Below are positions 11,401-36,249 of a stretch of 64,000 bases of DNA, in pieces. A program made the position numbers and the translations under genes. Position 1 is the first letter of the stretch, and each line of letters begins with the position of its first letter. Under the pieces are notes generated by a model, which saw only the letters and a program-made list of their open reading frames with translations, searched no databases and had not been told where the DNA came from. Origin of the DNA: Owenia fusiformis (taxonomy: Eukaryota > Annelida > Polychaeta > Sabellida > Oweniidae); the NCBI GenBank assembly GCA_903813345.2, contig CAIIXF020000006.1:33827524-33891523 (forward strand), read 5' to 3'.

Positions 11401-14400
11401 ATTCAGAAGCAATATGTTGTAGAAAAGATTAAAGGACAGTGGAAAGCCCAGGAGGTAAAAGGAACACAAGCTCAAACATTAAACTCCTCTCAACAAATGA
11501 GCCAATCAATGAATAATGGTACAGTCACACAGATGTCTTCTCAGCCACAATTAAGGATGCAATCTATGGCACAGCTTCAAACTCCTATGTCACAACATCA
11601 AACTCCTATGTCACAACATCAAACCCCCATGTCACAACATCAAACTTCTATGTCACAAAATCAAATTCCTATGTCACAAAATCAAACTCCTATGTCACAA
11701 AATCAAACTCCTATGTCACAGCATCAAGTTCCTTTCTCACAGCCTCAATCTGCAGTGTTGCAGGATCAAATTCCTTCCTCACAACAAACCCCTGTGTCAC
11801 ATCAGCAACCCCAAACATCACAAATCCAAGACCAAGTCAATATCATTTCATCTTCAGCAATTAACCAGCCTCATGGGGCAATCAGTCCTGCCCCTAAGGA
11901 TGCACCTCCAAAGCTAAATAGCCCAGAGTCTTTACCCCAGGGTCTTAATCCCACTACAGTGGCCACTTCAAGTGCAACAACCACAGGGAAGCCCACCTCA
12001 GAGGGTGATTTTGCAAACAGCAGCCACCAGGCCTTTCTCAGTCAGTTCTTAGACTTTGCTTCTCAGAAGAAGGAGCATGAGAGGGGAGAGGGAGATGCAG
12101 GTGCCTTGCAACTTGGGGGGCCAGTGAAAAGAAGGAGGTCATCAGGATCAAATAGTATTCAAAATTCCCCTATGGAACCTCACAAGACCCCTGAAAAGGC
12201 AGGACCCCCTGCCAAGAGAATCTGGAGGCCTGGGTTCTCTCCTGATGGGCCGAAAACAGAGACAGAATTAAAAGTGGCACAAACTATTGAAAAAGTCCGC
12301 ATGCAGATTAACATGGAGCAGCAAAGCAAAGTATCACAGCCTTTGAAATTTAAAAGCCTCGCTACTGATGAAAACGATGTGAATCACTTTGCTAATGACA
12401 ACAAAGAAGCTACAGATGATACCGATAATGTCTCAGTTATTAATGGTGAAAGAGAAAACCAGTTACCATCTGGAGAGGAGGTAAGAGAGAAGTCTCCAGG
12501 GGTTATTGATGAGAACAACACTGAGACTAGCAATGCAGTTGAACAAAACAATGAAGTTCAGAGCAATGTCTACAGTGAATCCAAATCTAATGTTATTGGT
12601 GTGGCAGGAACATCTGAAAGTCGACCAACTGCCTCTGTACAGCCTATTGTTTTTACCCAGAATGCACCAGCAAGTACCCATAATGCAATGCTGACCTCCC
12701 AGGGTGCAACAGCACAAGGAACATTGGTACCCAGCAACCATTCAGTATACCAGCAGTACCTACAGGTATGTAGTATCTTTCAAGTATGTTGGACATCACA
12801 TGACCCATATGTATACGTAGAAAATGTTAATAATCCTTGATCTGCACACAATTAAAAGGATAATGTTAATCCTATTTCGTCAATCAATTCTATGTTTGTT
12901 TTGAGTTGGTTGGGTTTAGAGAATAACTGCATACTTTGATTATTGCTGTCTTAAATTTGAACAAGGCATCTAAATCTATGACATTTTTGTACACATGTAG
13001 ACGGTCTTCAAGATTATCATGTTAGTTCCACTATCTTCCACTCTATTTTGACCACCATGACATTTCTTCTTGCATTTCAGCGTGAGCGAGATATCCAGCA
13101 ACAGCAGATGTCGCTACAGATCCTACAGCACCAGAGGATACAACAGGAGGTTGCTGCCCAGCAAGCCCAACAGGCCCTCCTTCAACAACGCATGGCTGGC
13201 TATCCAGCTCAGGTAGGTCTTTTAACAAGGTTTCATTACATCAGACTTTCTCCTGGTTGTTAGAATTTGCTTGTTTTGAAGAATTTTGCAAAAAATAATA
13301 ATTATAATTCTCAATAATTGTGCCTGTTGTTTTTATGTGTTGTATTGCCTTTTATCAGATAATTATTTTTGACTCCAAGGGTTCCAACTTAAGTATTCCA
13401 TCTTCAAGCATTTTGTTCAATGCTTATCCTGTCTGAACATTTCTATTACAAGGAATGCATGGATGAACTGCAAGGAGAATGGTTGATATTCATTCAGCAC
13501 ACATTGGATGAAAAAAGTCCCTATTGTCTGGCTATAAAGTCAATAGCAATCCAAGATTTCAACTTATATCTTGATCACCTCTAGTGTGTTTTTGAATTTT
13601 TTTACCCACGATTCAAATTCTGGGATGATAAATGGTAGCAGTTTGATTTTGAATTTTGTAATCATGACATGATTATGAGTTATGATGGCAAATATCGAGA
13701 TGGAACCCTGGGAGCCAATCCTCCTTGCTTTGATTGGCTAATATACATTATTCTCATTCAGATATTATTCAGCCAAAATAAATATTAAAATGTCACATTT
13801 CAAATACATTGTAGAAAGCTCCATGTAGCAAATAAACAACAGTTCTAGCATGATTTTATAGATGACAGAAATGACAGAGATTTTTGTTTTGAGACGGTTT
13901 TAAGGTTAATAAACTAAAAAATATAATTCATAAATAAAAGTATACTAATGGCAAATTGACATGAGCTTGAGTGAGATATTGAAGGTTTATAGTTTTTGAA
14001 ATGTTTCTCAAATTTACTTTTATTTGATTTTAGCTTGTTGGTCATGGATCAAATAGCCCTGATCCCAAGATGATGTATCGGTTACCTAGCAACCAGACCC
14101 CAGGGGTGCCACCTAGGGGATTTCACCCACAACAGTTTAATGGAGCCAGTCAGGATCCTTACATAAATGGTAAATTAATATATTATGTCAAATAGTACAG
14201 TTTTTTAAATGCAAACATGGTGTGTTTAGCTATTGATTTTGTAAATGATTAACAATGTTATGCATCCTTTTGTAGTGTCCAATGATGATAACATCTACAG
14301 TTGATGATAATGAAAAACAAAAATTACACTCTAATTTTTTTTCTGAGGACATAACTCTTAATGCATAACATCAAAATGACAACAAAATAAATTTTGAAAA

Positions 14401-14580
14401 TTCCCAGGAATGCTGGATATCGGTAGTAATTCATGTCCTGTCTAATTTAGAAATGACCGCTATGCAAACATTTGCCACTTCATAAGACGTTCAATGGGAT
14501 TTGCTACACCCTGGTGTTGCCGTTGTAAATTGTTTTAAATTTATCTAATTTCAGGCCCACAACGACCACCTTTTCAGTGA
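5423..14580 (+). CDS. CECR2-like bromodomain chromatin-remodelling protein, 3' part (12 exons)
   Basis: Exons: 5423-5512, 5850-5958, 6176-6293, 6539-6582, 7175-7266, 7662-7788, 8130-8241, 8702-8771, 9073-12765, 13081-13212, 14034-14169, 14555-14580. All joins are GT-AG and the frame holds through 4749 nt to TGA, giving 1582 residues; the 5' exons are outside the window. Residues 1-110 form a charged coiled coil including GKELPPEL. A bromodomain follows at about 118-214, with WPF, the PMD motif and the acetyl-lysine-binding Asn in CREYN (residue 189). Basic stretches RRRRRRK (about 260) and KRRRSS (about 1271) look like nuclear signals. Residues 255-1485 come from one 3693-nt exon rich in Q, N, M and P. 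CECR2 is known to pair with ISWI ATPases (CERF complex). The order ELPPEL, bromodomain, long disordered tail matches CECR2 rather than other bromodomain proteins. The N-terminal DDT region is not seen. Confidence 0.9.
6354..6479 (+). repeat. 17-bp minisatellite in a CECR2 intron
   Basis: About seven copies of gtagtacaattgcaact stand in tandem, with substitutions at the g/t/c positions. The unit is largely self-complementary (gtac, caattg), and one copy pair reads nearly as a palindrome, so the RNA could form hairpins. It lies 60 bp after the donor of exon 6176-6293. Confidence 0.85.
6926..7174 (+). repeat. 38-bp minisatellite built from a CECR2 3' splice site
   Basis: Units start at 6926, 6964, 7002, 7039, 7076 and 7114 (37-38 bp). 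Each contains tgttggtatttttccag followed by tgttagacaacatgagat. The seventh, most 3' copy is the genuine acceptor of the exon at 7175, whose first bases (ttttagacaacatgaga) match the second half of the unit. The minisatellite is therefore a tandem expansion of an intron-exon boundary. Four of the six upstream copies keep the AG; two have cag changed to ccg. Splicing to any retained decoy would run into a stop codon. Confidence 0.88.
9900..10266 (+). repeat. Coding minisatellite 1 in CECR2 (QNMGxNMPQG units)
   Basis: Within the large CECR2 exon, about ten degenerate copies of a 10-residue unit of the type [10 protein letters not shown] are encoded by a 30-nt repeat (cagaatatgggtccaaatat then gccacaagga). 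Unit length varies slightly, but the frame is kept. It corresponds to about residues 531-652 of the visible protein and is predicted to be disordered. Confidence 0.85.
10735..11256 (+). repeat. Coding minisatellite 2 in CECR2 (QPQQMPG heptads)
   Basis: About 25 in-frame copies of a 21-nt unit (caa ccc caa caa atg cca ggt) encode QPQQMPG or QPQQMQG. A 63-nt higher-order unit of three heptads (xQKIPD or xQKIID, then QPQQMQG, then QPQQMPG) repeats between 10861 and 11100, with IPD and IID alternating. It corresponds to about residues 809-982. The complementary strand gives a long Leu-rich open frame, which is only a mirror of the repeat. Confidence 0.9.
11585..11745 (+). repeat. Coding minisatellite 3 in CECR2 (MSQHQTP heptads)
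   Basis: About eight tandem 21-nt units (atgtcacaacatcaaactcct with variants) encode [14 protein letters not shown] or MSQHQVP. This is a third, independent in-frame heptad expansion in the same exon, with no obvious sequence kinship to the QPQQMPG array. Confidence 0.88.
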
Positions 14581-15267
14581 TGTACCTGAATGACCTCTAC
14601 CAGATGAGGCATGACAATAGGATTTCAGGCCAACATATACCAACGTTTCAACAACCTGTCTGGGTGACATTAGAGACAAAGGCTTAATTAATGCCATGTT
14701 TACAAACTACACTCTCTCATTAGTGAAATAAAAATGGACAAAAATACATCTTGCACAAAAAAGCCTTTGTAGCAGTACACATGAAAGACAATATAATGAA
14801 CAGAATATAAATTTACGGATCGTTGAACAACACAGTGATAAAGCATTGATACATTAGAAGTGAATGTGCATTGTGCACCCACTTGAGTAAATATTGTTCA
14901 AAGTATACCTTAAATATGAAACAATGGAATTTACTGTGAATCGTATAATAGGACAAACAGCCATGAAGTTGACAATCTAAATAGCATAGAAAAATATATT
15001 CATGCACATCATTTGAAGAGAAATTTTAAAGAGAAATGAAATGTTACAAAAACATCTTATTGCTTCATTTAAGTGAAACACTCTGCACTGACTTAACATA
15101 GAATAGGTACCTTGTTATATGCTTTGGATTTGTCAGATCTAAGTGTTGCACTTTGCTGGGAACCAATGCTGAATTGCTGTAGCAGAAACAATCTTAAAAA
15201 CTCAGGGTTTGTAGTTTAGTTATTTACAATTTGCAATTCTTAAATATTTTTATAGTTCTGCCAATCA

Positions 15268-15288
15268 AATAAATGAAGTGAAAATAAA
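15268..15288 (+). terminator. Polyadenylation signals of CECR2
   Basis: Two AATAAA hexamers (15268-15273 and 15283-15288) lie about 690 bp after the CECR2 stop codon. The 14581-15300 stretch would be the 3' UTR; nothing coding is seen in it. Confidence 0.6.
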
Positions 15289-15372
15289 ATCTTTAAATTA
15301 TTTTCCAACATTTATGTTTTGTCTTGTGAATGAATTTCCAGGGGCATTATCTCTCCGGTATTACAAAGATAT

Positions 15373-15399
15373 TTTATTCTATTAATCTAAAGATTTATT
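15373..15399 (-). terminator. Polyadenylation signals of P450 gene A
   Basis: On the - strand, AATAAA occurs at 15399-15394 and 15378-15373, about 100-120 bp past gene A's stop codon. These signals face the CECR2 signals about 85 bp away, so the two genes converge almost end to end. Confidence 0.55.
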
Positions 15400-15495
15400 T
15401 ATCTGTCCTGTCTAATTCGAATATTTTGCAGAACTCCGATGTCATAGGATGGTTCATTATTAATTTGTCTTCATCATTCATGCTTCTCTAGCTAG

Positions 15496-18400
15496 TTAAT
15501 CCATTAAACGTCTCTCAACTTTCAGGTAAATCCCATTTTTAGCTCGAAGCTCACCATCATCCTGTCCTAGCTGGATTGGATCCTGGAAATATTTTGTAAA
15601 GGTAGAATGAGTAAATCTGACTCATTGATTTGGATTTTTACACAGGCTTGTCAAAATTGATCAAATGAGACCTATGCCCATGTATTGACCAAAAATAAAA
15701 TATGTCATGGTTTGAATACTTTACTATCAAGCCCAAATATTCATTCCCATTTTCTAAATGAACTTATATATTCTTGAAATAAATTCTGTATATGATCTTA
15801 GAAATATGAATTAGACCTACCTCTGTCTTCTCACAGGGTATTATTCTCAGTTTCTGTAAAATTTTAACTAGGCAGAATTTCACCTCAATCTGGCCAAGTC
15901 TTGATGCAATGCAAGACCTGGGGCCAAGTCCAAATGGTTGAAAATAGTATGGGTTGCGCTTTGCCTTTTCCTCAGCAGAGAATCTGTCATTGAAAAATTA
16001 ATACAATTGTATGTCAATCTGGGAAATTCATTTATACCAGATATTTTTTGTGGTTTGTCGATAAATAAAAGTTATGGAGAAAATACAAGGACTTCATAGA
16101 AACCAATCTGTAAATTGATATTTTGCCTGGAAAAGTTTGGAAATTTTATTCTGAAAAGATTGTAGTGCCCCGAATCGGTAACACCTGGCTGATAAATCTT
16201 GCACCAGTTTTAATGCTAAGTGGAAGTAATCTAAAGAATCAAATATATGGCTACCTTTCAGGGATGAATTTTTCAGGGTCAGGATATATATCAGCATCAT
16301 GATGCATGGCATATACAGGGATTGTTACTATGGCATCCTTTGGAATAGTTATCCCTTCAATTGTGATAGTTGCGTTACATTGGCGCTCCAACCTATTTAC
16401 ACCAATGAGAGAAATGACTGTTTGTCATGTTTTAAAATTGAAAATAGTTGAATAAACAAACAAAAATAAATCAACTCATTATGAACGAACTAAATTGTTT
16501 AAGATGGGGAATGATTAAAAACATTTTGAAACTGAATGCTCCATCTTGTACAATACTTGTACACTAGATATCATACCATAAATATTTTGAGGTGTAAGTT
16601 TTGGTCTCCATTTAAAATTGTTCTTCAACATTGTTTATTTGTGCGTAATATCATTGTATGAGATGCTGGGGATTTTAAATATACCATCTCTTTCAGTTTT
16701 TAATAACTTACCCTTATGGTACTTACATATGCTAATGGTATTTAACATCTTTTTATATGATCAGACAATAGGGACATAAGGGAAGTTGTCATGTAGTTAC
16801 ATGTTTTTAAGAGGACTTTTCCTTGAATGTGAAATATTATATCACCCCAGGGATTACTGTCACCTTCAAGTTGCTTTCCCAGGGACTGCATTGCAACTTT
16901 TTTCCTTAAAGCTTTATACCCACCTGGGCAAGTAATTCCTTATCCCCACTAGACCTTAACTAAACACATTCACGTTCAAGTTCTCTTGGAAACATGTAGC
17001 TAAATACCTTCCAATTAGGAGAATTTTACCTGGAATCTGAAGGGAATAATCGTTGACTTTCTTCTATCACACTCTCTAAGTAAGTCATTTTTGAGAGCAT
17101 ATCATATGTTATATTGTCCTAAATGAAACATATAATTTTTCATTTTTTCATTTAATCAATCAGTATAGCAATCAAGAACAGATGGTTAGAAAATGAAACA
17201 CGAGTTGTGAATAAAAATTGGAATTGGAATTGAAATTGATAATAATCATATAAATTGGCGAAGCAAAACTTATTTGAAACTCTTTGGGCCCTAAAACTAT
17301 CTGCAGTTTGGAATTAAGTACTGGAGCAAATATAAAAATGTGATAATAGTCAAATAGGTCTAATACCTCTATGGGCAATGTAACCATCAACATTTTGGAT
17401 CAAAGCATAGGAGCAAATATGAAAAGTATTAATAACTAATGCAAAAGTCAAGTTTATGGCAATAATTAATCCTCCGATCATAGGGTTTCAAGCAATAATT
17501 GTGACTTTTATGGCATCTATGAATGATGTACGCTCTCCTCCATAAGTTTGGCAAACTGATGTCTCATTTTGGAACACTTATCAAAGCCTGTTGGTGATTT
17601 AAGTAGAATTTATTAAACTCATTCTGAGCAACTGTAATAAAGGAACGAAATAAAGATCCAAACAATAAACAAGTTTTAACACATTATCAAATGAAGACTT
17701 CCAGTTGCCAAACTTATGGAGGAGAGTGTATACCTAACAAAGTATTCTGTAAGATTTAATTGTTTCCCTTCATATAAGCCAGGTATGCCCATGTATGTGT
17801 TTGGTAAGTGTATGCCTAACAAAGTATTCTGTAAGATTTAATTGTTTCCCTTCATATAAGCCAGGTATGCCCATGTATGTGTTTGGTAAGTGTATGCCTA
17901 ACAAAGTATTCTGTAAGATTTAATTGTTTCCCTTCATATAAGCCAGGTATGCCCATGTATGTGTTTGGTAAGTGTATGCCTAACAAAGTATTATGTAAGA
18001 TTTAATTGTTTCCCTTCATATAAGCCAGGTATGCCCATGTATGTGTTTGGTAAGTGTATGCCTAACAAAGTATTATGTAAGATTTAATTGTTTCCCTTCA
18101 TATAAGCCAGGTATGCCCATGTATGTGTTTGGTAAGTGTATGCCTAACAAAGTATTATGTAAGATTTAATTGTTTCCCTTCATATAAGCCAGGTATGCCC
18201 ATGTATGTGTTTGGTAAGTGTATGCCTAACAAAGTATTATGTAAGATTTAATTGTTTCCCTTCATATAAGCCAGGTATGCCCATGTATGTGTTTGGTAAG
18301 TGTATGCCTAACAAAGTATTATGTAAGATTTAATTGTTTCCTTTCATATAAGCCAGGTATGCCCATGTATGTGTTTGGTAAGTGTATGCCTAACAAAGTA

Positions 18401-21400
18401 TTATGTAAGATTTAATTGTTTCCCTTCATATAAGCCAGGTATGCCCATGTATGTGTTTGGTAAGTGTATGCCTAACAAAGTATTCTGTAAGATTTAATTG
18501 TTTCCCTTCATATAAGCCAGGTATGCCCATGTATGTGTTTGGTAAGTGTATGCCTAACAAAGTATTATGTAAGATTTAATTGTTTCCCTTCATATAAGCC
18601 AGGTATGCCCATGTATGTGTTTGGTAAGTGTATGCCTAACAAAGTATTATGTAAGATTTAATTGTTTCCCTTCATATAAGCCAGGTATGCCCATGTATGT
18701 GTTTGGTAAGTGTATGCCTAACAAAGTATTCTGTAAGATTTAATTGTTTCCCTTCATATAAGCCAGGTATGCCCATGTATGTGCGTGGTAAGTGTATGCC
18801 TAACAAAGTATTCTGTAAGATTTAATTGTCTCTCCTTCATATAAGCCAGGTATGCCCATGTATGTGCGTGGTAAGTGTATGCCTAACAAAGTATTCTGTA
18901 AGATTTAATTGTTTCCCTTCATATAAGCCAGGTATGCCCATGTATGTGTTTGGTAAGTGTATGCCTAACAAAGTATTCTGTAAGATTTAATTGTTTCCCT
19001 TCATATAAGCCAGGTATGCCCATGTATGTGTTTGGTAAGTGTATGCCTAACAAAGTATTCTGTAAGATTTAATTGTTTCCCTTCATATAAGCCAGGTATG
19101 CCCATGTATGTGCGTGGTAAGTGTATGCCTAACAAAGTATTCTGTAAGATTTAATTGTCTCTCCTTCATATAAGCCAGGTATGCCCATGTATGTGCGTGG
19201 TAAGTGTATGCCTAACAAAGTATTCTGTAAGATTTAATTGTTTCCCTTCATATAAGCCAGGTATGCCCATGTATGTGTTTGGTAAGTGTATGCCTAACAA
19301 AGTATTCTGTAAGATTTAATTGTTTCCCTTCATATAAGCCAGGTATGCCCATGTATGTGTTTGGTAAGTGTATGCCTAACAAAGTATTCTGTAAGATTTA
19401 ATTGTTTCCCTTCATATAAGCCAGGTATGCCCATGTATGTGTTTGGTAAGTGTATGCCTAACAAAGTATTCTGTAAGATTTAATTGTTTCCCTTCATATA
19501 AGCCAGGTATGCCCATGTATGTGTTTGGTAAGTGTATGCCTAACAAAGTATTCTGTAAGATTTAATTGTTTCCCTTCATATAAGCCAGGTATGCCCATGT
19601 ATGTGTGTGGTAAGTGTATGCCTAACAAAGTATTCTGTAAGATTTAATTGTTTCCCTTCATATAAGCCAGGTATGCCCATGTATGTGTTTGGTAAGTGTA
19701 TGCCTTACAAAGTATTCTGTAAGATTTAATTGTTTCCCTTCATATAAGCCAGGTATGCCCATGTATGTGTGTGGTAAGTGTATGCCTAACAAAGTATTAT
19801 GTAAGATTTAATTGTTTCCCTTCATATAAGCCAGGTATGCCCATGTATGTGTTTGGTAAGTGTATGCCTAACAAAGTATTATGTAAGATTTAATTGTCTC
19901 TCCTTCATATTAGATAGATATGCCCATGTATGTGTTTGGTAAGTGTATGCCTAACAAAGTATTCTGTACGATTTAATTGTTTCCCTTCATATAAGCCAGG
20001 TATGCCCATGTATGTGTTTTGTAAGTGTATGCCTAACAAAGTATTATGTAAGATTTAATTGTCTCTCCTTCATATTAGATAGATATGCCCATGTATGTGT
20101 TTGGTAAGTGTATGCCTAACAAAGTATTCTGTAAGATTTAATTGTTTCCCTTCATATAAGCCAGGTATGCCCATGTATGTGTTTGGTAAGTGTATGCCTA
20201 ACAAAGTATTCTGTAAGATTTAATTGTTTCCCTTCATATAAGCCAGGTATGCCCATGTATGTGTTTGGTAAGTGTATGCCTAACAAAGTATTCTGTAAGA
20301 TTTAATTGTTTCCCTTCATATAAGCCAGGTATGCCCATGTATGTGTTTGGTAAGTGTATGCCTAACAAAGTATTATGTAAGATTTAATTGTTTCCCTTCA
20401 TATAAGCCAGGTATGCCCATGTATGTGTTTGGTAAGTGTATGCCTAACAAAGTATTATGTAAGATTTAATTGTTTCCCTTCATATAAGCCAGGTATGCCC
20501 ATGTATGTGTTTGGTAAGTGTATGCCTAACAAAGTATTCTGTAAGATTTAATTGTTTCCCTTCATATAAGCCAGGTATGCCCATGTATGTGCGTGGTAAG
20601 TGTATGCCTAACAAAGTATTCTGTAAGATTTAATTGTCTCTCCTTCATATAAGCCAGGTATGCCCATGTATGTGCGTGGTAAGTGTATGCCTAACAAAGT
20701 ATTCTGTAAGATTTAATTGTTTCCCTTCATATAAGCCAGGTATGCCCATGTATGTGTTTGGTAAGTGTATGCCTAACAAAGTATTCTGTAAGATTTAATT
20801 GTTTCCCTTCATATAAGCCAGGTATGCCCATGTATGTGTTTGGTAAGTGTATGCCTAACAAAGTATTCTGTAAGATTTAATTGTTTCCCTTCATATAAGC
20901 CAGGTATGCCCATGTATGTGCGTGGTAAGTGTATGCCTAACAAAGTATTCTGTAAGATTTAATTGTCTCTCCTTCATATAAGCCAGGTATGCCCATGTAT
21001 GTGCGTGGTAAGTGTATGCCTAACAAAGTATTCTGTAAGATTTAATTGTTTCCCTTCATATAAGCCAGGTATGCCCATGTATGTGTTTGGTAAGTGTATG
21101 CCTAACAAAGTATTCTGTAAGATTTAATTGTTTCCCTTCATATAAGCCAGGTATGCCCATGTATGTGTTTGGTAAGTGTATGCCTAACAAAGTATTCTGT
21201 AAGATTTAATTGTTTCCCTTCATATAAGCCAGGTATGCCCATGTATGTGTTTGGTAAGTGTATGCCTAACAAAGTATTCTGTAAGATTTAATTGTTTCCC
21301 TTCATATAAGCCAGGTATGCCCATGTATGTGTTTGGTAAGTGTATGCCTAACAAAGTATTCTGTAAGATTTAATTGTTTCCCTTCATATAAGCCAGGTAT

Positions 21401-24400
21401 GCCCATGTATGTGTGTGGTAAGTGTATGCCTAACAAAGTATTCTGTAAGATTTAATTGTTTCCCTTCATATAAGCCAGGTATGCCCATGTATGTGTTTGG
21501 TAAGTGTATGCCTTACAAAGTATTCTGTAAGATTTAATTGTTTCCCTTCATATAAGCCAGGTATGCCCATGTATGTGTGTGGTAAGTGTATGCCTAACAA
21601 AGTATTATGTAAGATTTAATTGTTTCCCTTCATATAAGCCAGGTATGCCCATGTATGTGTTTGGTAAGTGTATGCCTAACAAAGTATTATGTAAGATTTA
21701 ATTGTCTCTCCTTCATATTAGATAGATATGCCCATGTATGTGTTTGGTAAGTGTATGCCTAACAAAGTATTCTGTACGATTTAATTGTTTCCCTTCATAT
21801 AAGCCAGGTATGCCCATGTATGTGTTTTGTAAGTGTATGCCTAACAAAGTATTATGTAAGATTTAATTGTCTCTCCTTCATATTAGATAGATATGCCCAT
21901 GTATGTGTTTGGTAAGTGTATGCCTAACAAAGTATTCTGTAAGATTTAATTGTTTCCCTTCATATAAGCCAGGTATGCCCATGTATGTGTTTGGTAAGTG
22001 TATGCCTAACAAAGTATTCTGTAAGATTTAATTGTTTCCCTTCATATAAGCCAGGTATGCCCATGTATGTGTTTGGTAAGTGTATGCCTAACAAAGTATT
22101 CTGTAAGATTTAATTGTTTCCCTTCATATAAGCCAGGTATGCCCATGTATGTGTTTGGTAAGTGTATGCCTAACAAAGTATTATGTAAGATTTAATTGTT
22201 TCCCTTCATATAAGCCAGGTATGCCCATGTATGTGTTTGGTAAGTGTATGCCTAACAAAGTATTATGTAAGATTTAATTGTTTCCCTTCATATAAGCCAG
22301 GTATGCCCATGTATGTGTTTGGTAAGTGTATGCCTAACAAAGTATTCTGTAAGATTTAATTGTTTCCCTTCATATAAGCCAGGTATGCCCATGTATGTGC
22401 GTGGTAAGTGTATGCCTAACAAAGTATTCTGTAAGATTTAATTGTCTCTCCTTCATATAAGCCAGGTATGCCCATGTATGTGCGTGGTAAGTGTATGCCT
22501 AACAAAGTATTCTGTAAGATTTAATTGTTTCCCTTCATATAAGCCAGGTATGCCCATGTATGTGTTTGGTAAGTGTATGCCTAACAAAGTATTCTGTAAG
22601 ATTTAATTGTTTCCCTTCATATAAGCCAGGTATGCCCATGTATGTGTTTGGTAAGTGTATGCCTAACAAAGTATTCTGTAAGATTTAATTGTTTCCCTTC
22701 ATATAAGCCAGGTATGCCCATGTATGTGCGTGGTAAGTGTATGCCTAACAAAGTATTCTGTAAGATTTAATTGTCTCTCCTTCATATAAGCCAGGTATGC
22801 CCATGTATGTGCGTGGTAAGTGTATGCCTAACAAAGTATTCTGTAAGATTTAATTGTTTCCCTTCATATAAGCCAGGTATGCCCATGTATGTGTTTGGTA
22901 AGTGTATGCCTAACAAAGTATTCTGTAAGATTTAATTGTTTCCCTTCATATAAGCCAGGTATGCCCATGTATGTGTTTGGTAAGTGTATGCCTAACAAAG
23001 TATTCTGTAAGATTTAATTGTTTCCCTTCATATAAGCCAGGTATGCCCATGTATGTGTTTGGTAAGTGTATGCCTAACAAAGTATTCTGTAAGATTTAAT
23101 TGTTTCCCTTCATATAAGCCAGGTATGCCCATGTATGTGTTTGGTAAGTGTATGCCTAACAAAGTATTCTGTAAGATTTAATTGTTTCCCTTCATATAAG
23201 CCAGGTATGCCCATGTATGTGTGTGGTAAGTGTATGCCTAACAAAGTATTCTGTAAGATTTAATTGTTTCCCTTCATATAAGCCAGGTATGCCCATGTAT
23301 GTGTTTGGTAAGTGTATGCCTTACAAAGTATTCTGTAAGATTTAATTGTTTCCCTTCATATAAGCCAGGTATGCCCATGTATGTGTGTGGTAAGTGTATG
23401 CCTAACAAAGTATTATGTAAGATTTAATTGTTTCCCTTCATATAAGCCAGGTATGCCCATGTATGTGTTTGGTAAGTGTATGCCTAACAAAGTATTATGT
23501 AAGATTTAATTGTCTCTCCTTCATATTAGATAGATATGCCCATGTATGTGTTTGGTAAGTGTATGCCTAACAAAGTATTCTGTACGATTTAATTGTTTCC
23601 CTTCATATAAGCCAGGTATGCCCATGTATGTGTTTTGTAAGTGTATGCCTAACAAAGTATTATGTAAGATTTAATTGTCTCTCCTTCATATTAGATAGAT
23701 ATGCCCATGTATGTGTTTGGTAAGTGTATGCCTAACAAAGTATTCTGTAAGATTTAATTGTTTCCCTTCATATAAGCCAGGTATGCCCATGTATGTGTTT
23801 GGTAAGTGTATGCCTAACAAAGTATTATGTAAGATTTAATTGTTTCCCTTCATATAAGCCAGGTATGCCCATGTATGTGTTTGGTAAGTGTATGCCTAAC
23901 AAAGTATTATGTAAGATTTAATTGTCTCTCCTTCATATTAGATAGATATGCCCATGTATGTGTGTGGTAAGTGTATGCCTAACAAAGTATTCTGTAAGAT
24001 TTAATTGTTTCCCTTCATATAAGCCAGGTATGCCCATGTATGTGTTTGGTAAGTGTATGCCTAACAAAGTATTCTGTAAGATTTAATTGTTTCCCTTCAT
24101 ATAAGCCAGGTATGCCCATGTATGTGTTTGGTAAGTGTATGCCTAACAAAGTATTCTGTAAGATTTGATTGTTTCCCTTCATATAAGCCAGGTATGCCCA
24201 TGTATGTGTGTGGTAAGTGTATGCCTAACAAAGTATTCTGTAAGATTTAATTGTTTCCCTTCATATAAGCCAGGTATGCCCATGTATGTGTGTGGTAAGT
24301 GTATGCCTAACAAAGTATTCTGTAAGATTTAATTGTCTCTCCTTCATATAAGCCAGGTATGCCCATGTATGTGTTTGGTAAGTGTATGCCTAACAAAGTA

Positions 24401-27400
24401 TTCTGTAAGATTTAATTGTTTCCCTTCATATAAGCCAGGTATGCCCATGTATGTGTTTGGTAAGTGTATGCCTAACAAAGTATTATGTAAGATTTAATTG
24501 TCTCTCCTTCATATTAGATAGATATGCCCATGTATGTGTTTGGTAAGTGTATGCCTAACAAAGTATTCTGTAAGATTTAATTGTCTCTCCTTCATATAAG
24601 CCAGGTATGCCCATGTATGTGTTTGGTAAGTGTATGCCTAACAAAGTATTATGTAAGATTTAATTGTTTCCCTTCATATAAGCCAGGTATGCCCATGTAT
24701 GTGTGTGGTAAGTGTATGCCTAACAAAGTATTCTGTAAGATTTAATTGTTTCCCTTCATATAAGCCAGGTATGCCCATGTATGTGTTTGGTAAGTGTATG
24801 CCTAACAAAGTATTCTGTAAGATTTAATTGTTTCCCTTCATATAAGCCAGGTATGCCCATGTATGTGTTTGGTAAGTGTATGCCTAACAAAGTATTATGT
24901 AAGATTTAATTGTTTCCCTTCATATAAGCCAGGTATGCCCATGTATGTGTGTGGTAAGTGTATGCCTAACAAAGTATTCTGTAAGATTTAATTGTTTCCC
25001 TTCATATAAGCCAGGTATGCCCATGTATGTGTTTGGTAAGTGTATGCCTAACAAAGTATTATGTAAGATTTAATTGTCTCTCCTTCATATAAGCCAGGTA
25101 TGCCCATGTATGTGTGTTGTAAGTGTATGCCTAACAAAGTATTCTGTAAGATTTAATTGTTTCCCTTCATATAAGCCAGGTATGCCCATGTACTGTATGT
25201 GTGTGGTAAGTGTATGCCTAACAAAGTATTCTGTAAGATTTAATTGTTTCCCTTCATATAAGCCAGGTATGCCCATGTATGTGTGTGGTAAGTGTATGCC
25301 TAACAAAGTATTCTGTAAGATTTAATTGTCTCTCCTTCATATAAGCCAGGTATGCCCATGTATGTGTTTGGTAAGTGTATGCCTAACAAAGTATTCTGTA
25401 AGATTTAATTGTTTCCCTTCATATAAGCCAGGTATGCCCATGTATGTGTTTGGTAAGTGTATGCCTAACAAAGTATTCTGTAAGATTTAATTGTTTCCCT
25501 TCATATAAGCCAGGTATGCCCATGTATGTGTGTGGTAAGTGTATGCCTAACAAAGTATTATGTAAGATTTAATTGTTTCCCTTCATATAAGCCAGGTATG
25601 CCCATGTATGTGTTTGGTAAGTGTATGCCTAACAAAGTATTCTGTAAGATTTAATTGTTTCCCTTCATATAAGCCAGGTATGCCCATGTATGTGTTTGGT
25701 AAGTGTATGCCTAACAAAGTATTATGTAAGATTTAATTGTCTCTCCTTCATATTAGATAGATATGCCCATGTATGTGTTTGGTAAGTGTATGCCTAACAA
25801 AGTATTCTGTAAGATTTAATTGTTTCCCTTCATATTAGCCAGGTATGCCCATGTATGTGTTTGGTAAGTGTATGCCTAACAAAGTATTCTGTAAGATTTA
25901 ATTGTCTCTCCTTCATATTAGATAGATATGCCCATGTATGTGTGTGGTAAGTGTATGCCTAACAAAGTATTATGTAAGATTTAATTGTTTCCCTTCATAT
26001 AAGCCAGGTATGCCCATGTATGTGTTTGGTAAGTGTATGCCTAACAAAGTATTATGTAAGATTTAATTGTTTCCCTTCATATAAGCCAGGTATGCCCATG
26101 TATGTGTTTGGTAAGTGTATGCCTAACAAAGTATTCTGTAAGATTTAATTGTTTCCCTTCATATAAGCCAGGTATGCCCATGTATGTGTGTGGTAAGTGT
26201 ATGCCTAACAAAGTATTCTGTAAGATTTAATTGTTTCCCTTCATATAAGCCAGGTATGCCCATGTATGTGTTTGGTAAGTGTATGCCTAACAAAGTATTC
26301 TGTAAGATTTAATTGTTTCCCTTCATATAAGCCAGGTATGCCCATGTATGTGTTTGGTAAGTGTATGCCTAACAAAGTATTCTGTAAGATTTAATTGTTT
26401 CCCTTCATATAAGCCAGGTATGCCCATGTATGTGTGTGGTAAGTGTATGCCTAACAAAGTATTCTGTAAGATTTAATTGTTTCCCTTCATATAAGCCAGG
26501 TATGCCCATGTATGTGTTTGGTAAGTGTATGCCTAACAAAGTATTATGTAAGATTTAATTGTTTCCCTTCATATAAGCCAGGTATGCCCATGTATGTGTT
26601 TGGTAAGTGTATGCCTAACAAAGTATTATGTAAGATTTAATTGTCTCTCCTTCATATTAGATAGATATGCCCATGTATGTGTTTGGTAAGTGTATGCCTA
26701 ACAAAGTATTCTGTACGATTTAATTGTTTCCCTTCATATAAGCCAGGTATGCCCATGTATGTGTTTTGTAAGTGTATGCCTAACAAAGTATTATGTAAGA
26801 TTTAATTGTCTCTCCTTTATTTAGATAGATATGCCCATGTATGTGTGTGGTAAGTGTATGCCTAACAAAGTATTCTGTAAGATTTAATTGTTTCCCTTCA
26901 TATAAGCCAGGTATGCCCATGTATGTGTTTGGTAAGTGTATGCCTAACAAAGTATTCTGTAAGATTTAATTGTTTCCCTTCATATAAGCCAGGTATGCCC
27001 ATGTATGTGTGTGGTAAGTGTATGCCTAACAAAGTATTCTGTAAGATTTAATTGTTTCCCTTCATATAAGCCAGGTATGCCCATGTATGTGTGTGGTAAG
27101 TGTATGCCTAACAAAGTATTCTGTAAGATTTAATTGTTTCCCTTCATATAAGCCAGGTATGCCCATGTATGTGTGTGGTAAGTGTATGCCTAACAAAGTA
27201 TTATGTAAGATTTAATTGTTTCCCTTCATATTAGATAGATATGCCCATGTATGTGTTTGGTAAGTGTATGCCTAACAAAGTATTCTGTAAGATTTAATTG
27301 TTTCCCTTCATATAAGCCAGGTATGCCCATGTATGTGTTTGGTAAGTGTATGCCTAACAAAGTATTCTGTAAGATTTAATTGTTTCCCTTCATATAAGCC

Positions 27401-30400
27401 AGGTATGCCCATGTATGTGTTTGGTAAGTGTATGCCTAACAAAGTATTCTGTAAGATTTAATTGTTTCCCTTTATATAAGCCAGGTATGCCCATGTATGT
27501 GTGTGGTAAGTGTATGCCTAACAAAGTATTCTGTAAGATTTAATTGTCTCTCCTTCATATTAGATAGATATGCCCATGTATGTGTGTGGTAGGTGTAAAT
27601 GTTTGGTAATTGTAAACTGTAACGTACATAGGGCAATGTGCCTTACCTCACCATCCGTGACTTCCATAACCTCTTCATAAACCTTTTCTTGGATGTCCTG
27701 GTGAAGAGCCATTTCATAAGCAGCCCAGCTAATTGTAGTAGAGACTGAGTCATATCCAGCAAGGATAAATATGATCGCATTTGCCAAAATCACATCATCT
27801 TTAAGTCCTATTATCAAGATGTGGAAACCATGAATGATGCTTATAAATAACCGTGGTATTTTCCCAATAAATACGGCAATAATATTTTCATCAAAAAATG
27901 ATAATTTGTGAAAAAATATTTTACAAGAGATATGAAAACATGAAAGTTTAGATATCCATAATGTTCAATTTGAATTTAATCAAAATAGACCAGGATCTAA
28001 TAAATATTTCAGTTAGATGAATCACAACCTGGTGCATTTTATGGGACTTCAATAAACATAAAACTCAAATGGGGAAGATGTTACATTGCAAGGTAGACAC
28101 TTACTTTTATCTTCATCCTCAACATCTTGGGCCTTCAGCATGAGACTCAGAAAGTCATTATGTTTCTGTAAAAGTGTATTTTTGTAACTTGCATTTTAAT
28201 AATAACATGGTACTGAAGAATTTAAGCACCAGACTCATTGTACTAAGTAGGCGGGATGTGCTGCCCCGAATGACTCTGGATATCGGACCTCTGGAGTCAT
28301 GGCAAATCTCAGATATATAAATATGGACATGTACTTACATTTGGATCAGCCTTTCTATTTGCTATTGCCTGAGCCATAATGTTTTTAAAGAATGCATTTG
28401 TCTCTTGTGGAATTGCTCCCATCCCAGACTTTATAACCAATGGAGCCAAAGCAGGTGCAAGCACAGCAACTAAAGTCACCAATTTTGATTGAGAGTGTTA
28501 TTTTTGGTAAAGGTATTATAACATTAATATACCAATTTGCAAATTTGAAAATGGAAAAAGTCATGGTTTGTTCTTTGTCTCAACCATTAACCGTTTAATA
28601 ACAAATATTTTATACATTCTTTTCAGTGTTCCATTTTTTACTTTGTTCCTTTAATTCTTCTTTCCCCTCTAGTCATTGTGCAAGCATACATGATCGTGTT
28701 TTTTTCATATGCGATAGGTGGACTTTTCCAAGTACCATCGATATTTAATGTTTAAATATGTTTCTGAATGTTTACACAGAATTTGATTACACGTAGTGTG
28801 TGTTCTTTATCCTTTGGACAAAGGACATATACAGGGTGTCCGGAAAGTAAAGATACAAATGCTCTAATTTCAAGAGATTTACCTGTTATGAGATGAAATT
28901 GCTCCAGAATGTAGAATTACATTATAACAATATATACTGCAACTGTTATGACTTTCAGTTTGAAAATGAAAAAGTTATGGTTGTTATGGTAACGGGAGTT
29001 GAGGGTAAGTGGAGCAACGTCACAACTGTGTTCTACAAATCTCTTTCCTACTCATATGATCTTGGCACTCCACCATCTATTCCTATATTATATCAAATTA
29101 TGTACCACAACAGCATAGGGATTAGTAATGTAACATTATTTGATCATTTCATATTACTGCTATCATTGAATATTCAGTATTTTCCCCATTATCTATACAT
29201 TCTTGGTGCATCTTGACCGGCGGTTGAAAGACCTGACAAAACCGCTGCTGTCCATCTCTCAGATTGCTGATAACATTTGCTTCCAGCTGAGTCTAATTTT
29301 TATGTTTACCTTTTTACAAATATTTCTTTCAAATGGTCATTAAGGTAGAAGTCTAAATAGGCTTTATCAGGTGAATGTGGGGCATTGTATAGAAAGGTTT
29401 AATGTCAAGACACTCCATTGTAAGATTTGTTTTTTTGCTTTGTGAATTGGTGCATTGTGGAGATGCAATATTGACTTTCCTACTTATGGCCAGGGACCAT
29501 TCTTCTAGGCACTTGTATAATATTTCCTTCATTATACTGGTAAGTGACATAACATAGTTCTGATATGTAGCAATGACATCATTATATAATAGAAAACACT
29601 ATGGCAGCAATAATACATTGATGAATAAAAAAACATAGATAGAAAATACAACAAAAAACACTGTTTCAAATGGTTGTCTTTTAGCAATTTTTCACTTCTT
29701 AGCGTTGTTCTGGAACTGCTCCGCATACCCCTCACATCCATAACCATAACAACCATAACTTAAACACATTAAGACTATATGGGATGAAAGTTGGTAGATA
29801 TATTGTAATGTTGTTCCTCTACAATCTGTACCAATTTCATTTCAAAAAACCCAAATTTCTTAAAATAAGAGCATTTGTATCTTTACTTTCCGGACACCCT
29901 GTATGTCTTGTTTCGAAAAAAGGGAATTCTTCAAATATCCTGAAGATGACATACTTATCCCTGCGGCGACTCTGAAAAATCCAGCTTGAGAAAACTCAGC
30001 AGAATGGGTAATAAACTCAGACTTTGGATTATTCTGAACTTGTGCATCTATTCCAAACCCAATCGCTGCAACTATATCCAAAGTGCATTTTCCAACCAAA
30101 CTGGAAATGGAAGAAACATGTGGTGTGATCTCAAAGGAGATGCCACCATTTATTGATACAACTCAAATTTTAGGCACTATATTTATACTGTAAATAATAA
30201 TCCAAAAACAATGTGAAAGTAGTTTGTACTTCTTAAAGGTGAAAATTAAAGATGCAATCAGAACTAGAAAATTCAAATTACTCTTTGAATTCAAACATGT
30301 CATCAGCGTCCGCTCTTTCTCCCATCTTTTCTAATAGGGTATTGTTATACATGTTTAAACTTTCCATCATCTGCAACACATAAAATACAATACTCAATTT

Positions 30401-33400
30401 GCACCATATGAGCAAAATTAGATAGTGCTAGCACCAGTGACAAAAGGCATTGAATTGCATTGGAATGAACATGACAAAGCACAGCAAGAAAAAGAAACAT
30501 TTCAGAGTCCAAACAATCAGATGGAACACGAAGCTCAAATATCCTTTAACTACTGTATTATATAAAATTATTAAACAGTTAAAACCCATCACAAAGTCGC
30601 CATAGTCCACAAAACACAATAATTCAGTTTAACAGCAAAAGTTTGAAATTCTAAATGATTGTGTTTCTTGTTTACATGAAGCTTTATACCCGTTTAATCT
30701 TGCCACTAGTGAATGCTTGGGTCATCACATTTCTTGTTTACATGAAGCTTTATACCCGTTTAATCTTGCCACTAGTGAATGCTTGGGTCATCACATTTCT
30801 TGTTGTTTTCCACTCATCATCAACTAAGTCTGTTAACATCTTGTCAATGATTGGTCCAAAAACTGCTGGCATTTTCTAAAACAAGAGAGGCTATTTGACT
30901 CATCTCTACATAAAGCCAATGCTAGTTACTTTATATGATTCTACATGTTGATTACAGAGAAGGAAATGATCTTCATGGCATTTTCATGTGCAACATGTTG
31001 CATTCATGCAATTTATTTCATATTCCAACTAGCCCTACCACTTACTCTTCTATTTTGGAAATTTGAGAATTCTTTGACCAAAACAGTTTTAAGTAGATCT
31101 CCATCAGCAATAGCTAAATTAGGGACACTTCCATCAAAGAAGCTGCAAAAACATTACTGGAACATTTATCATGTTTATAATGGTATGTGCAAATGTAAGA
31201 ACACAACAACAATCAACCCGCTCCATTTGTCCCAAAAAAGGTTTGTACGCCTAGCAACAAACAGTGATTACAGAGCTCATTCCACCCCACTTTTTGAAAT
31301 GTTAAAATTACTCAATGTCTTTGATATTAATAAGCAAGTCAAATGTATATTTATGTTTAAATGGAAAATGACTTGGATAATTATAGGAGTATATACCCCC
31401 GTCTTTTTACAATGGTGCACGAAAGAAATCCCTATAATACCAGAAATAGAACGACTTATGACAAACCCAAAGCTCGAACAAATTATGGCAGATCATCTTT
31501 ATCCTTTTCAATACCACAACTTTGGAACAATCTACCAGAAAGACTTAAAGAAATAAAAAGTATCTATATATTTAAAAAGGAACTGAAAAAACTGTTTTTG
31601 GAGAGCTATTAATTCACTTGAAATTTTGTTTTGTTTTCTCCTCACTGCCCTCGCCATCACTCCCACCCCTTCTCTTGTGTATTCCTTTTTGTCCTCTTCT
31701 ATTACTGGACATAACATATCTCTCAGTTTATCAGATTCTTATTTTTATAATCAAACACAGTTTTGATTCTTTTGGTTTGTTTGATATTTATTTATTTTTG
31801 ACATAGCCTGCTGTTTACAGCTTCCATCTATCAACCTCTCATCATGTATGTTTGTATTCAATGGGTCTCTTCTCAGATGTGACAAGCAAAAAATGAACAT
31901 TTGTATGGTTGAATGCAAAGACAAGTCCCCAACTGCACATTAACAGGTATGACAACACACAACTTTTATTGTAAAAATTTGTTGGGAATATACACTTTTT
32001 AAGTGTCACCCACTCATACATTGTATATTTGTGTGAATTTAAAAAAGGAAATAAACATAAAACGTTTAATTTACAATGTGTTTAATCCCAGGGCTAAATC
32101 TGATACTAACATAGACATAACATTTTATGATGGTCTCAGGTCTAATGTAAGATGAGGTCCAAAGAAGAACACAAAATTGTTCTCTAAAATCTGATTAGCT
32201 TATTGGTTGTATATGCCAACAAATGTTACAGAATTACACCTTTTAAAATACAGAATGAAGAATTAATATTTTACATTTAGAAAAAAATCTTTGTGTGTTA
32301 CATTTAAGTGTTTTCCAAAGTTACATACATACGATATTTAGTTTATATTTCCTTTATTGTTTTAAATTAAACTTACCCATATACTTTGTTATTCTTATAC
32401 CGTTCATACATTACCACATCTGCATCTACAAAGCCCTGGAAAATAAATCATGTTGCATTGGTATTCACTTACAGTATTTATTTCTTCAAAATGGAATGAA
32501 ATGGCCACACATTTATTAAGGTTCATTTTTTAAAAAGATATATTAAGTTTTTAGTTTTTTATTATGATATGTGTTTTCAATATGTTGCCCTTTGTGTTCT
32601 ACCTTAACAATGTTCTGATATAATGATTGAGGAATGGTCAACATACTTAAAATGGTCATGAATGAAGACTAACATACCCCTAAAATGATATTTAGAATGA
32701 TTTGTGTAGTCAAACGTAAATGAACTGAATGACCTTAGTTTTAATCCATATGTAACTTTATTATGTGTTCATAATTGACAAAAGTAACTATTTCCATATT
32801 ATTTTCAATGAAACCTTTGGGGGCACCTTTAGGTGCATTAGTTAATGGATCCTTTGCCAGATCAGCTTGGGATATTGTTAAGGTCCTTCAACTTCCTTAA
32901 ATAGAAACATTCAAGCAAATTCACCCAGGGAAATGGTTTAAGTCCTGTAATTAGGGCCTACCTTAAATATGAACACCCAGGTTGTGCCAATTATGGGAAA
33001 TGGAGTAGGTCCTTTAATACCTTGCGCTGACCAATAGCCAAAGTTCCATGTAAGGTATCTAAAACATTTTAAATCAAATTAATTACATTGCATTCCCATT
33101 TGCTATCAATATTTTAATTAAAACTTTTGAGGGTCCCTCTTTTGATTTTCAGGACCCCCACCCCAATAATGCCCAACCTCTTTGACAAAATTGATCCTTA
33201 TTCCTTAGCCTAAAGATAATACATTTCTCACCCAAACTCCATTAACTGATGAATGAGTTTACGTTACACAAAACATGTATTTTTAGGGATTGTTTATATT
33301 GTAGATTCTTAAAAACGTGCAGTTAAATACTGGCAATAGCGATGATCAGAAAACAAAAATTTGGGGATTTTATTTTAGAGTCACCCTATAATTTACATGC

Positions 33401-33694: not shown

Positions 33695-35505
33695 GGTTTA
33701 TACCATTTTGCTGAAATAATACAATATTGTTCTGTTATTGTGTATATCCCATCCCACACTGTTGTATACATTGCTGTTATGCATATCGTGTTTATACCAC
33801 TTTGCTGTAATAATACAATATTGTTCCGTTATTGTGTATATCACATCCCAACCTGATGTATACATTGCTGTTATGTATATCGTGTTTATACCACTTTGCT
33901 GTAATAATACAATATTGTTCCGTTATTGTGTATATCACATCCCACCCTGATGTATACATTGCTGTTATGTATATCGTGTTTATACCACTTTGCTGTAATA
34001 ATACAATATTGTTCCGTTATTGTGTATATCACATCCCACCCTGATGTATACATTGCTGTTATGTATATCGTGTTTATACCACTTTGCTGTAATAATACAA
34101 TATTGTTCCGTTATTGTGTATATCACATCCCACCCTGATGTATACATTGCTGTTATGTATATCGTGTTTATACCATTTTGCTGAAATAATACAATATTGT
34201 TCTGTTATTGTGTATATCCCATCCTACCCTGTTGTATACATTGCTGTTATGCATATCGTGTTTATACCACTTTGCTTTAATAATACAATATTGTTCCGTT
34301 ATTGTGTATATCCCATCCTACCCTGTTGTATACATTGCTGTTATGTATATCGTGTTTATACCACTTTGCTGTAATAATACAATATTGTTCCGTTATTGTG
34401 TATATCCCATCCCACCCTGTTGTATACATTGCTGTTATGTATATCGTTTTTATACCACTTTGCTGTAATAATACAATATTGTTCCGTTATTGTGTATATC
34501 ACATCCCAACCTGATGTATACATTGCTGTTATGTATATCGTGTTTATACCACTTTGCTGTAATAATACAATATTGTTCCGTTATTGTGTATATCACATCC
34601 CAACCTGATGTATACATTGCTGTTATGTATATCGTGTTTATACCACTTTGCTGTAATAATACAATATTGTTCCGTTATTGTGTATATCACATCCCACCCT
34701 GATGTATAGTACATTGCTGCTATGTATATCGTGTTTATACCACTTTGCTGTAATAATACAATATTGTTTCGTTATTGTGTATATCCCGTCCCACCCTGAT
34801 GTATACATTGCTGTTATGTATATTGTGTTTATACCACTTTGCTGTAATAATGCAATATTGTTCCGTTATTTTGTATATCCCATCCCACCCTGATGTATAC
34901 ATTGCTGTTATGTATATTGTGTTTATACCACTTTGCTGTAATAATGCAATATTGTTCCGTTATTTTGTATATCCCATCCCACCCTGATGTATACATTGCT
35001 GTTATGTATATCGTGTTTATACCACTTTGCTGTAATAATACAATATTGTTCCGTTATTGTGTATATCACATCCCACCCTGATGTATAGTACATTGCTGCT
35101 ATGTATATCGTGTTTATACCACTTTGCTGTAATAATACAATATTGTTCCGTTATTGTGTATATCACATCCCACCCTGATGTATAGTACATTGCTGCTATG
35201 TATATCGTGTTTATACCACTTTGCTGTAATAATACAATATTGTTTCGTTATTGTGTATATCCCGTCCCACCCTGATGTATACATTGCTGTTATGTATATT
35301 GTGTTTATACCACTTTGCTGTAATAATGCAATATTGTTCCGTTATTTTGTATATCCCATCCCACCCTGTTGTATACATTGTTGTCTTGTATATTGTGTTT
35401 ATACCACTTTGCTGTAATAATACAATATTGTTCACAATGTTAAGTTATTGTGTATATCACATCCCACCCTGTTGTATACATTGCTGTTATGTATATTGTG
35501 TTAAT
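33695..35505. repeat. 94-bp tandem array, about 19 copies, in the 5' flank of gene A
   Basis: The unit is 94 bp (the same motif recurs at 33738, 33832, 33926). Some 97-bp units carry gatgtatagtacattgctgc. A five-unit higher-order block of 476 bp repeats (marker tgtttcgttattg at 34765 and 35241). Each unit gives spurious 70-87 aa open frames on the + strand. The array begins about 195 bp upstream of gene A's ATG, so it occupies the promoter side of the gene. Confidence 0.93.
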
Positions 35506-36249
35506 AACTTTAGGTCCCCACTGCATGTACTGTGTACAATGTTTCTGTGTAGATTCATATATTGTATACAATGATGTTCTGTTATTGTTTATATTCCACA
35601 CAGCTGTATACAATGCTGAAGAGTTGTATAACATGAATGTGTATAATTAGTCAGGCATAACATACAGCAGATATGTATTAACAGACTTACCCTTTAATTT
35701 AGCCTAGTAATTACTATCATATTGTAAGATAAGTGAACTTAGCCTTTGGACTACTCTATTTATTTCATGTTGGATCATAATTATAGTCATTTTAGACCAA
35801 ATCAGTTTGCAAACATCCACTTTGTCGTGCAGTTTACTTTCCTACCTGGTGCTGGTATTGCAACACATTTCTAATCTATTTTTGTCATTTGCTTTTAGCA
35901 TTATCAGAATATTTAGATTGGTTTAAGTGGGCTGCCCTACATAGATTAAATGTGTGTTGATTCATGTATTACTAATATTTCTAAAGCAGCAGTATACTGG
36001 TCCAATGGGGTTAAATGTATGGCATATCATACAATGTCAAGCTCAAGTGCCAACTAGATTCCCAAAAATCTAAAAGGATGAGAATCCTAAACCCCTTCTA
36101 TCAGCCCATAAGAAATTGGACATGAAATAAGAACATGATCACTACATCATGGAAAAATGTAAAATATGGGTAAATGTTTCTGTATACATATGTACATCTA
36201 TAGGTAAAGTATGCATAACTACAATGCAATACAATATAGTACAACAAGG
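35506..36249. other. A-B spacer, no feature recognised
   Basis: AT-rich sequence between the 94-bp array and a degraded dispersed repeat. No exon, RNA gene or structured repeat could be supported. Confidence 0.4.

Follow-up and report, generated by a model that had tools for sequence, protein, structure and literature searches.

An intron of a detoxification-enzyme gene of the cytochrome P450 type in the polychaete Owenia fusiformis contains a tandem array of 120 units of about 82 bp, and nearly every unit bears on its + strand a layout resembling a very short exon between splice sites. The array lies in a stretch of 64,000 nucleotides (assembly GCA_903813345.2, contig CAIIXF020000006.1, positions 33,827,524 to 33,891,523) that was analysed as a whole and is called the window here; all positions are counted from its first nucleotide. 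We consider it highly probable that the array is an intronic, satellite-like minisatellite that grew by multi-unit duplication beside an element resembling a miniature inverted-repeat transposable element (MITE), and the splice signals of its + strand are probably a by-product of the segment that founded it. No function would be required to explain the array. A preliminary description of this DNA had put forward a chain of spliced microexons, with the caveat that one ancestral splice-like unit copied many times would give the same picture; it is the caveat that offers the better explanation.

Organization and growth of the array

Tandem Repeats Finder reported a single array of period 82 (17725-27597, 120.1 copies, 96% matches), and an anchor-based parse divided it into 120 units, in agreement with the number given before. 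Among the 119 spacings between units, 97 are of 82 nt, 21 of 83 nt and one of 87 nt. The units comprise 22 distinct sequences, the commonest of which accounts for 45 of the 120, and their head-to-tail arrangement and high identity are those of a minisatellite or satellite-like repeat. The features on which the argument turns are the following.

17731 to 27597, no strand assigned: 82-bp minisatellite array of 120 units (Tandem Repeats Finder, anchor-based parse and unit census)
18404 to 23826, no strand assigned: three tandem identical copies of a 1808-bp block of 22 units, the last copy one base short (exact self-matches and unit-type order)
17783 to 17803, + strand: 21-nt segment of the first unit, with AG before and GTAAGT after it, recurring unit by unit (sequence and census of the 120 units)
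17529 to 17730, no strand assigned: MITE-like element with TA at both ends and imperfect inverted repeats of 43 nt, 81% complementary (structure)
17119 to 27646, minus strand: 10,528-nt intron of P450 gene A that hosts the array (boundaries estimated from splice-site scores beside the tblastx matches)
27598 to 27646, minus strand: initial 49 nt of the host intron, in which the decayed 17-bp repeat of the array edge lies
27647 to 27807, minus strand: exon of gene A bearing the I-helix motif (AGYDS), on the 5' side of the host intron (motif, tblastx; Pfam p450, 9.1e-13 over 27644-27808)
17030 to 17118, minus strand: exon of gene A bearing the K-helix motif (ESQR), on the 3' side of the host intron (motif, tblastx)
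15821 to 15983, minus strand: gene A exon with the heme-binding motif, boundaries estimated (motif; Pfam p450, 7.6e-14 over 15806-15994)

Evidence on the growth of the array comes from its internal repetition. There are exact self-matches of 3615 bp at a shift of 1808 bp and of 1807 bp at a shift of 3616 bp, and when the 120 units are written as an ordered list of unit types, one string of 22 units recurs three times. A self-match of 3615 bp at a shift of 1808 means that whole multi-unit blocks were duplicated. Provided that the blocks are not a product of the assembly, the array therefore grew through duplications of several units at a time, which are either recent or have been homogenised. 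Furthermore, tandem arrays recur in the same gene cluster, with units of 94 bp (19 copies) and of about 182 bp (13 and 5 copies).

The edges of the array and its putative founder

On the left, the first unit is abutted by the right end of the MITE-like element, whose classification as a MITE is suggested by its structure. Including its terminal TA, the element ends in AGTGTA (17725-17730), identical to the six bases at the consensus junction between units, and the array itself ends in GGTGTA (27592-27597). At the right edge of the array, 17 bp recur in a decayed copy. A founder segment lying beside the end of the MITE-like element may have been duplicated between these short RGTGTA matches, after which unequal exchange or multi-unit duplication would have enlarged the array. 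The + strand signals, namely the pyrimidine tract, CAG/GTATGC, the 21 nt and TTG/GTAAGT, would already have been present in the founder and would have been copied along with it.

The same edges bear on the idea that the array is, or arrived with, the internal repeat of a larger mobile element of the MITE or Helitron/HINE type, which would be compatible with growth from a founder as just described. The contact between the array and the MITE-like element is in its favour, and in the oyster some HINE elements are known to contain satellite DNA-like (satDNA-like) arrays, according to the excerpt of PMC7492417. Both inverted repeats, however, lie to the left of the array, so that the array is not enclosed by them; the terminal repeat does not recur in the right flank, and the element occurs nowhere else in the window. 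We regard this origin as unlikely.

As to where the founder itself came from, the best match of the unit elsewhere in the window, outside the array, extends over 28 bp (E = 0.020), and the matches in the paralogous introns are weak, the best having E 0.086. With no better outside matches than these, no clear single-copy ancestor emerges, and none in the paralogous introns is claimed. Searches in other collections were also negative. Rfam gave 0 matches at the gathering score over the whole window, and four matches to microRNA families in 17500-18300, all on the hairpin of the MITE-like element and far below the cut-offs. Exact pieces of the unit had 0 matches in bacterial and archaeal contigs (40 bases) and 0 in viral contigs (23 bases), which carries little weight for an animal sequence.

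The host gene and its intron

Three tandem P450 genes, A, B and C, lie on the minus strand of the window, as identified by motifs, by tblastx among the three stretches and by Pfam. The Pfam p450 family was found on all 7 stretches of one scan and also on 27560-27961; a scan of the gene B stretch 45961-46323 returned no family. Judged from its sequence, gene A is shown to be a CYP3-like P450 gene: the best solved chains for its heme exon (15806-15994 scanned) are CYP3A4 and CYP3A7 (E 7.4e-11). The motifs and tblastx matches of its exons place it on the strand opposite to the splice-like signals, as had been stated before.

Intron boundaries were taken as the best-scoring splice sites near the ends of the tblastx matches and are therefore estimates. 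On this basis the host intron has its donor at 27646 and its acceptor at 17118, and its length of 10,528 nt compares with estimates of 1035 nt for the matching intron of gene B and 279 nt for that of gene C. The 34 P450 introns estimated in this way range from 101 nt up to the 10,528 nt of the host intron.

Splice-like layout of the unit

In a full census, 118 of the 120 units had on their + strand an AG separated by exactly 21 nt from a GTAAGT, which bears out the unit structure first described. The two exceptions are a unit whose segment is 26 nt long, owing to a 5-bp insertion, and the last unit, in which the 21 nt are followed by GTAGGT. The commonest segment, GTATGCCCATGTATGTGTTTG, is present in 70 of the 120 units; other segments that begin with GTA end in GTGTG (18 units), GCGTG (12), GTTTT (4) or GTGTT (1), and those that begin with ATA end in GTTTG (10) or GTGTG (3). 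Codons 6 and 7 vary as reported earlier (TGT or TGC, and TTG, GTG or TTT), save in one unit with GTT. Directly after the acceptor AG there is a GT (CAG/GTATGC) in 106 of the 120 units, and the remaining 14 have AG/AT. A second AG is found 4 nt upstream of the acceptor AG (ATAAG/CCAG).

Splice sites were scored in bits with consensus-frequency matrices. On the + strand of the consensus unit the acceptor reaches 9.4 bits and the donor TTG/GTAAGT, 21 nt downstream, 8.3 bits, with a sum of 17.6; for the top-scoring sites close to the ends of the P450 exons, the medians are 5.5 bits for acceptors and 7.1 for donors. The strongest donor of the consensus unit is CAG/GTATGC, at the acceptor itself, with 9.5 bits. 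As a statistic for comparison with chance we used the summed score of the best acceptor, an exon of 6-60 nt and of a length divisible by three, and a donor. Among 5000 dinucleotide shuffles of the unit, 8 reached its sum on one strand and 9 on either strand; among 5000 real 82-mers taken from the window outside the arrays, the figures were 14 and 16. GTAAGT alone is far commoner, occurring in 682 of 5000 shuffles and in 118 of 5000 real 82-mers.

Outside 17500-27700, on both strands, 2 pairs of sites 9-60 nt apart have both members at least as strong, 0 of them with a length divisible by three, and 0 of the 385 AGGT sites reach 9 bits as acceptor and 8 as donor together. Four further tandem repeats of the window, two of which form one family, were each scored on their first copy, and their best sum was 8.5, against 17.6 for this unit. 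The scoring against shuffles that the preliminary description had called for thus came out in favour of its observation: for a single unit, the splice-like layout is stronger than chance. A per-unit rate of about 0.2-0.3% is nevertheless not compelling evidence of function, because the 120 copies amount to one event and the feature was picked post hoc from many possible ones.

On the minus strand of the unit, which is the sense strand of the host gene, the best donor scores -0.3 bits and there is no acceptor-donor pair 6-60 nt apart with a length divisible by three. This poverty is not unusual, since about 16% of 4000 sampled 82-mers are equally poor on one strand. The splice-like signals run antisense to the host transcript. 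As there is no good donor on the unit's sense strand, the array does not have to interfere with the splicing of its host.

Proposed splicing of the array as microexons or in recursive steps

The proposal made first was that splicing joins the segments of successive units of a + strand transcript into a Cys-rich heptad-repeat RNA or protein, in the manner of a giant micro-exon gene. The two sites 21 nt apart do exceed the medians of the P450 sites, the layout is kept throughout with the exceptions described, and no segment type has a stop in frame 0. When the main 21-mer is repeated, however, all three frames are open (VCPCMCL, YAHVCVW and MPMYVFG), so that the Cys-rich frame is a choice among three; repetition of the ATA-type 21-mer closes one of the three.

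Several results speak against such splicing. Besides the antisense orientation, the 21 nt show no sign of constraint, with substitutions in 4 of 21 columns against 12 of the other 61 (Fisher p = 1.0, in what is a weak test of low power, with indel columns left out and the units related to one another), and the 5-bp insertion shifts the frame of one unit. The 61-nt introns would be shorter than any of the 34 P450 introns, for which the lowest estimate is 101 nt. Furthermore, the acceptor has a competitor in the AG 4 nt upstream, which scores 7.3 against 5.8 bits in the ATA-type unit and 3.2 against 9.4 bits in the commonest unit, and the 21-nt exon has a competing stronger donor in the one placed at its own acceptor. 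The 83-bp variant with a rewritten tract had been said to keep its AG at the same place, and it does (5.8 bits), but the AG 4 nt upstream is the better one (7.3 bits) and would give a segment of 25 nt.

Nor did searches for coding sequence on the + strand support the proposal: Pfam found no match on the three + frames of 12701-17802 and of 27601-32102. Stop-to-stop frames of at least 110 amino acids lying wholly inside the unspliced array were not found; one minus-strand frame, 27560-27964, extends from the P450 exon into the last unit. The micro-exon genes of schistosomes, in the excerpt of PMC10526429, are protein-coding genes with exons of 3-81 bp and long introns of up to 5 kbp; they resemble the array, with its putative exons, in the series of many short exons, and differ in that here the spacers are of 61 nt and nearly identical. 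The splicing claim is not supported, and we judge a microexon array, as far as the sequence tells, to be the least probable of the readings considered.

A recursive-splicing reading would fit the sequence better than the microexon reading. Each unit would then hold a + strand ratchet point (AG/GT) and, downstream of it, a cryptic exon of 21 nt whose donor is weaker, about 120 times over, and an antisense transcript would be shortened in steps of 82 nt. The consensus unit has the pyrimidine tract, the juxtaposed acceptor and donor, and the weaker exon donor that characterise such a site; AG/GT is kept in most units, and a combination as strong was met at none of the other AGGT sites. The ratchet-point donor exceeds the exon donor, which is the order known in flies and mammals (excerpt of PMC8605326).

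Against this stands the strand: a ratchet point is expected in sense within a transcribed intron, where it would be useful, and the host P450 gene is on the other strand. The AG/AT units lack the donor, steps of 82 nt have no evident use, and the ratchet-point motif so far known is described as ultraconserved in the same excerpt (PMC8605326). The array shares with a ratchet point and its recursive-splicing exon (RS-exon) the pyrimidine tract, the common AG/GT, the short exon and the weaker downstream donor (PMC8605326); it differs in having about 120 repeats and in being antisense to its host. We consider a recursive-splicing function very unlikely. A more elaborate form of it is likewise very unlikely: a chain of some 120 such modules, perhaps reached by antisense transcription that runs on from the convergent bromodomain gene described below, would either shorten the RNA in 82-nt steps or yield microexon repeats or circles, and the 14 units without an AG/GT donor would be those that keep the short exon.

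Duplicated exon-intron boundaries

Tandem units with splice signals are also known as mirages, minisatellite-like duplications of a host exon-intron boundary found in the Adh3 and globin genes of amphioxus, in which many units keep AG/GT and regular splicing is apparently undisturbed (excerpt of PMC3087553). The array has the same look, lying within a gene and 49 nt from an exon. Moreover, gene A carries a mirage-like duplication of its own, 66 bp in 2.1 identical copies at 30664-30804, across the 3' end and donor of an exon, which yields two identical donor-like sites 66 bp apart. Mirages, however, copy the boundary of their host (PMC3087553), whereas the 82-bp unit matches no P450 exon in the window and bears its signals on the opposite strand. 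That the array arose as a mirage is therefore highly improbable.

Neighbouring features

Several other repeats and genes were observed in the window. The 94-bp array with its 19 copies occupies 33696-35506, immediately 5' of the first block of gene A exons that was found. The two arrays of roughly 182-bp units, at 41035-43347 and 44408-45396, lie about 1.1 kb apart in one intron of P450 gene B; by eye, their consensus units seem to be the same unit in opposite orientation, and they may represent the two ends of a single element. An element of about 1.08 kb (28829-29904), in a different intron of gene A, has inverted repeats (162 bp, 78%) that start with CAGGGTGTCCGGAAAGTAAAG after TA at both ends.

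On the + strand, a bromodomain gene (7174-14687; Pfam 3e-10) converges on gene A and has a long open frame that is rich in Gln and contains repeats of 21 and 30 bp; short open frames suggest that it ends near 14687. We take it to be CECR2-like, and CECR2 is among its matches, but BRD4 and polybromo-1 rank higher. A + strand remnant at 54929-55399, probably a fragment of a long interspersed nuclear element (LINE), matches zf-RVT weakly (2e-05), its 25.6 bits falling short of the curated cut-off of 27.5.

Discussion

The evidence presented here argues for an intronic minisatellite that grew by duplication of multi-unit blocks, with splice-like signals copied from its founder. Satellite-like arrays scattered through gene-rich DNA are known. 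Satellites have reportedly been found in introns of Mytilus HSP70 genes. The satDNA-like repeats of the oyster Crassostrea gigas resemble the present array in being arranged head to tail, in their high identity and in their location in euchromatin or introns; the 13 oyster clusters have units mostly of 140-180 bp and a longest array of 29 monomers, whereas the unit here is of 82 bp in 120 units, and an enclosing mobile element was not found (excerpt of PMC7492417).

The splice signals recall the model of intron gain through tandem duplication of AGGT-containing segments, in which units in sense orientation can be spliced (excerpt of PMC4974935). In both cases the units carry AGGT and a pyrimidine tract and could be spliced from unit to unit, but the duplications of the model are exonic and in sense, whereas this array is intronic and its signals are antisense (PMC4974935). 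No intronic array of antisense splice-like units was found among the literature matches listed, the nearest of which, as far as its excerpt goes, is the amphioxus globin paper (PMC3087553).

Some observations weigh against the explanation that we favour. The identical blocks could in part be an artefact of the assembly. The founder model depends on one match of 6 nt, a single case that might be a coincidence. An ancestor of the unit in situ in an intron of gene B is possible, the unit having there its weak match of 40 columns at 75% (E 0.086, the best in the paralogous introns). The layout is rarer than expected of a random unit, both among the shuffles and among the other AGGT sites, and the founder may therefore derive from a sequence that was truly spliced. 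Finally, antisense transcription and splicing of the array itself would be possible.

Considered as a minisatellite, the array is ordinary, though long for a single intron. The host intron is about ten times and nearly forty times as long as its counterparts in the two paralogues, and the exons of gene A are still recognisable. The motif seen 120 times within it is one observation, not 120. That one unit is, at the same time, an unusually strong composite splice site, and the locus would thus be a natural test of whether antisense satellite transcripts can be spliced stepwise.

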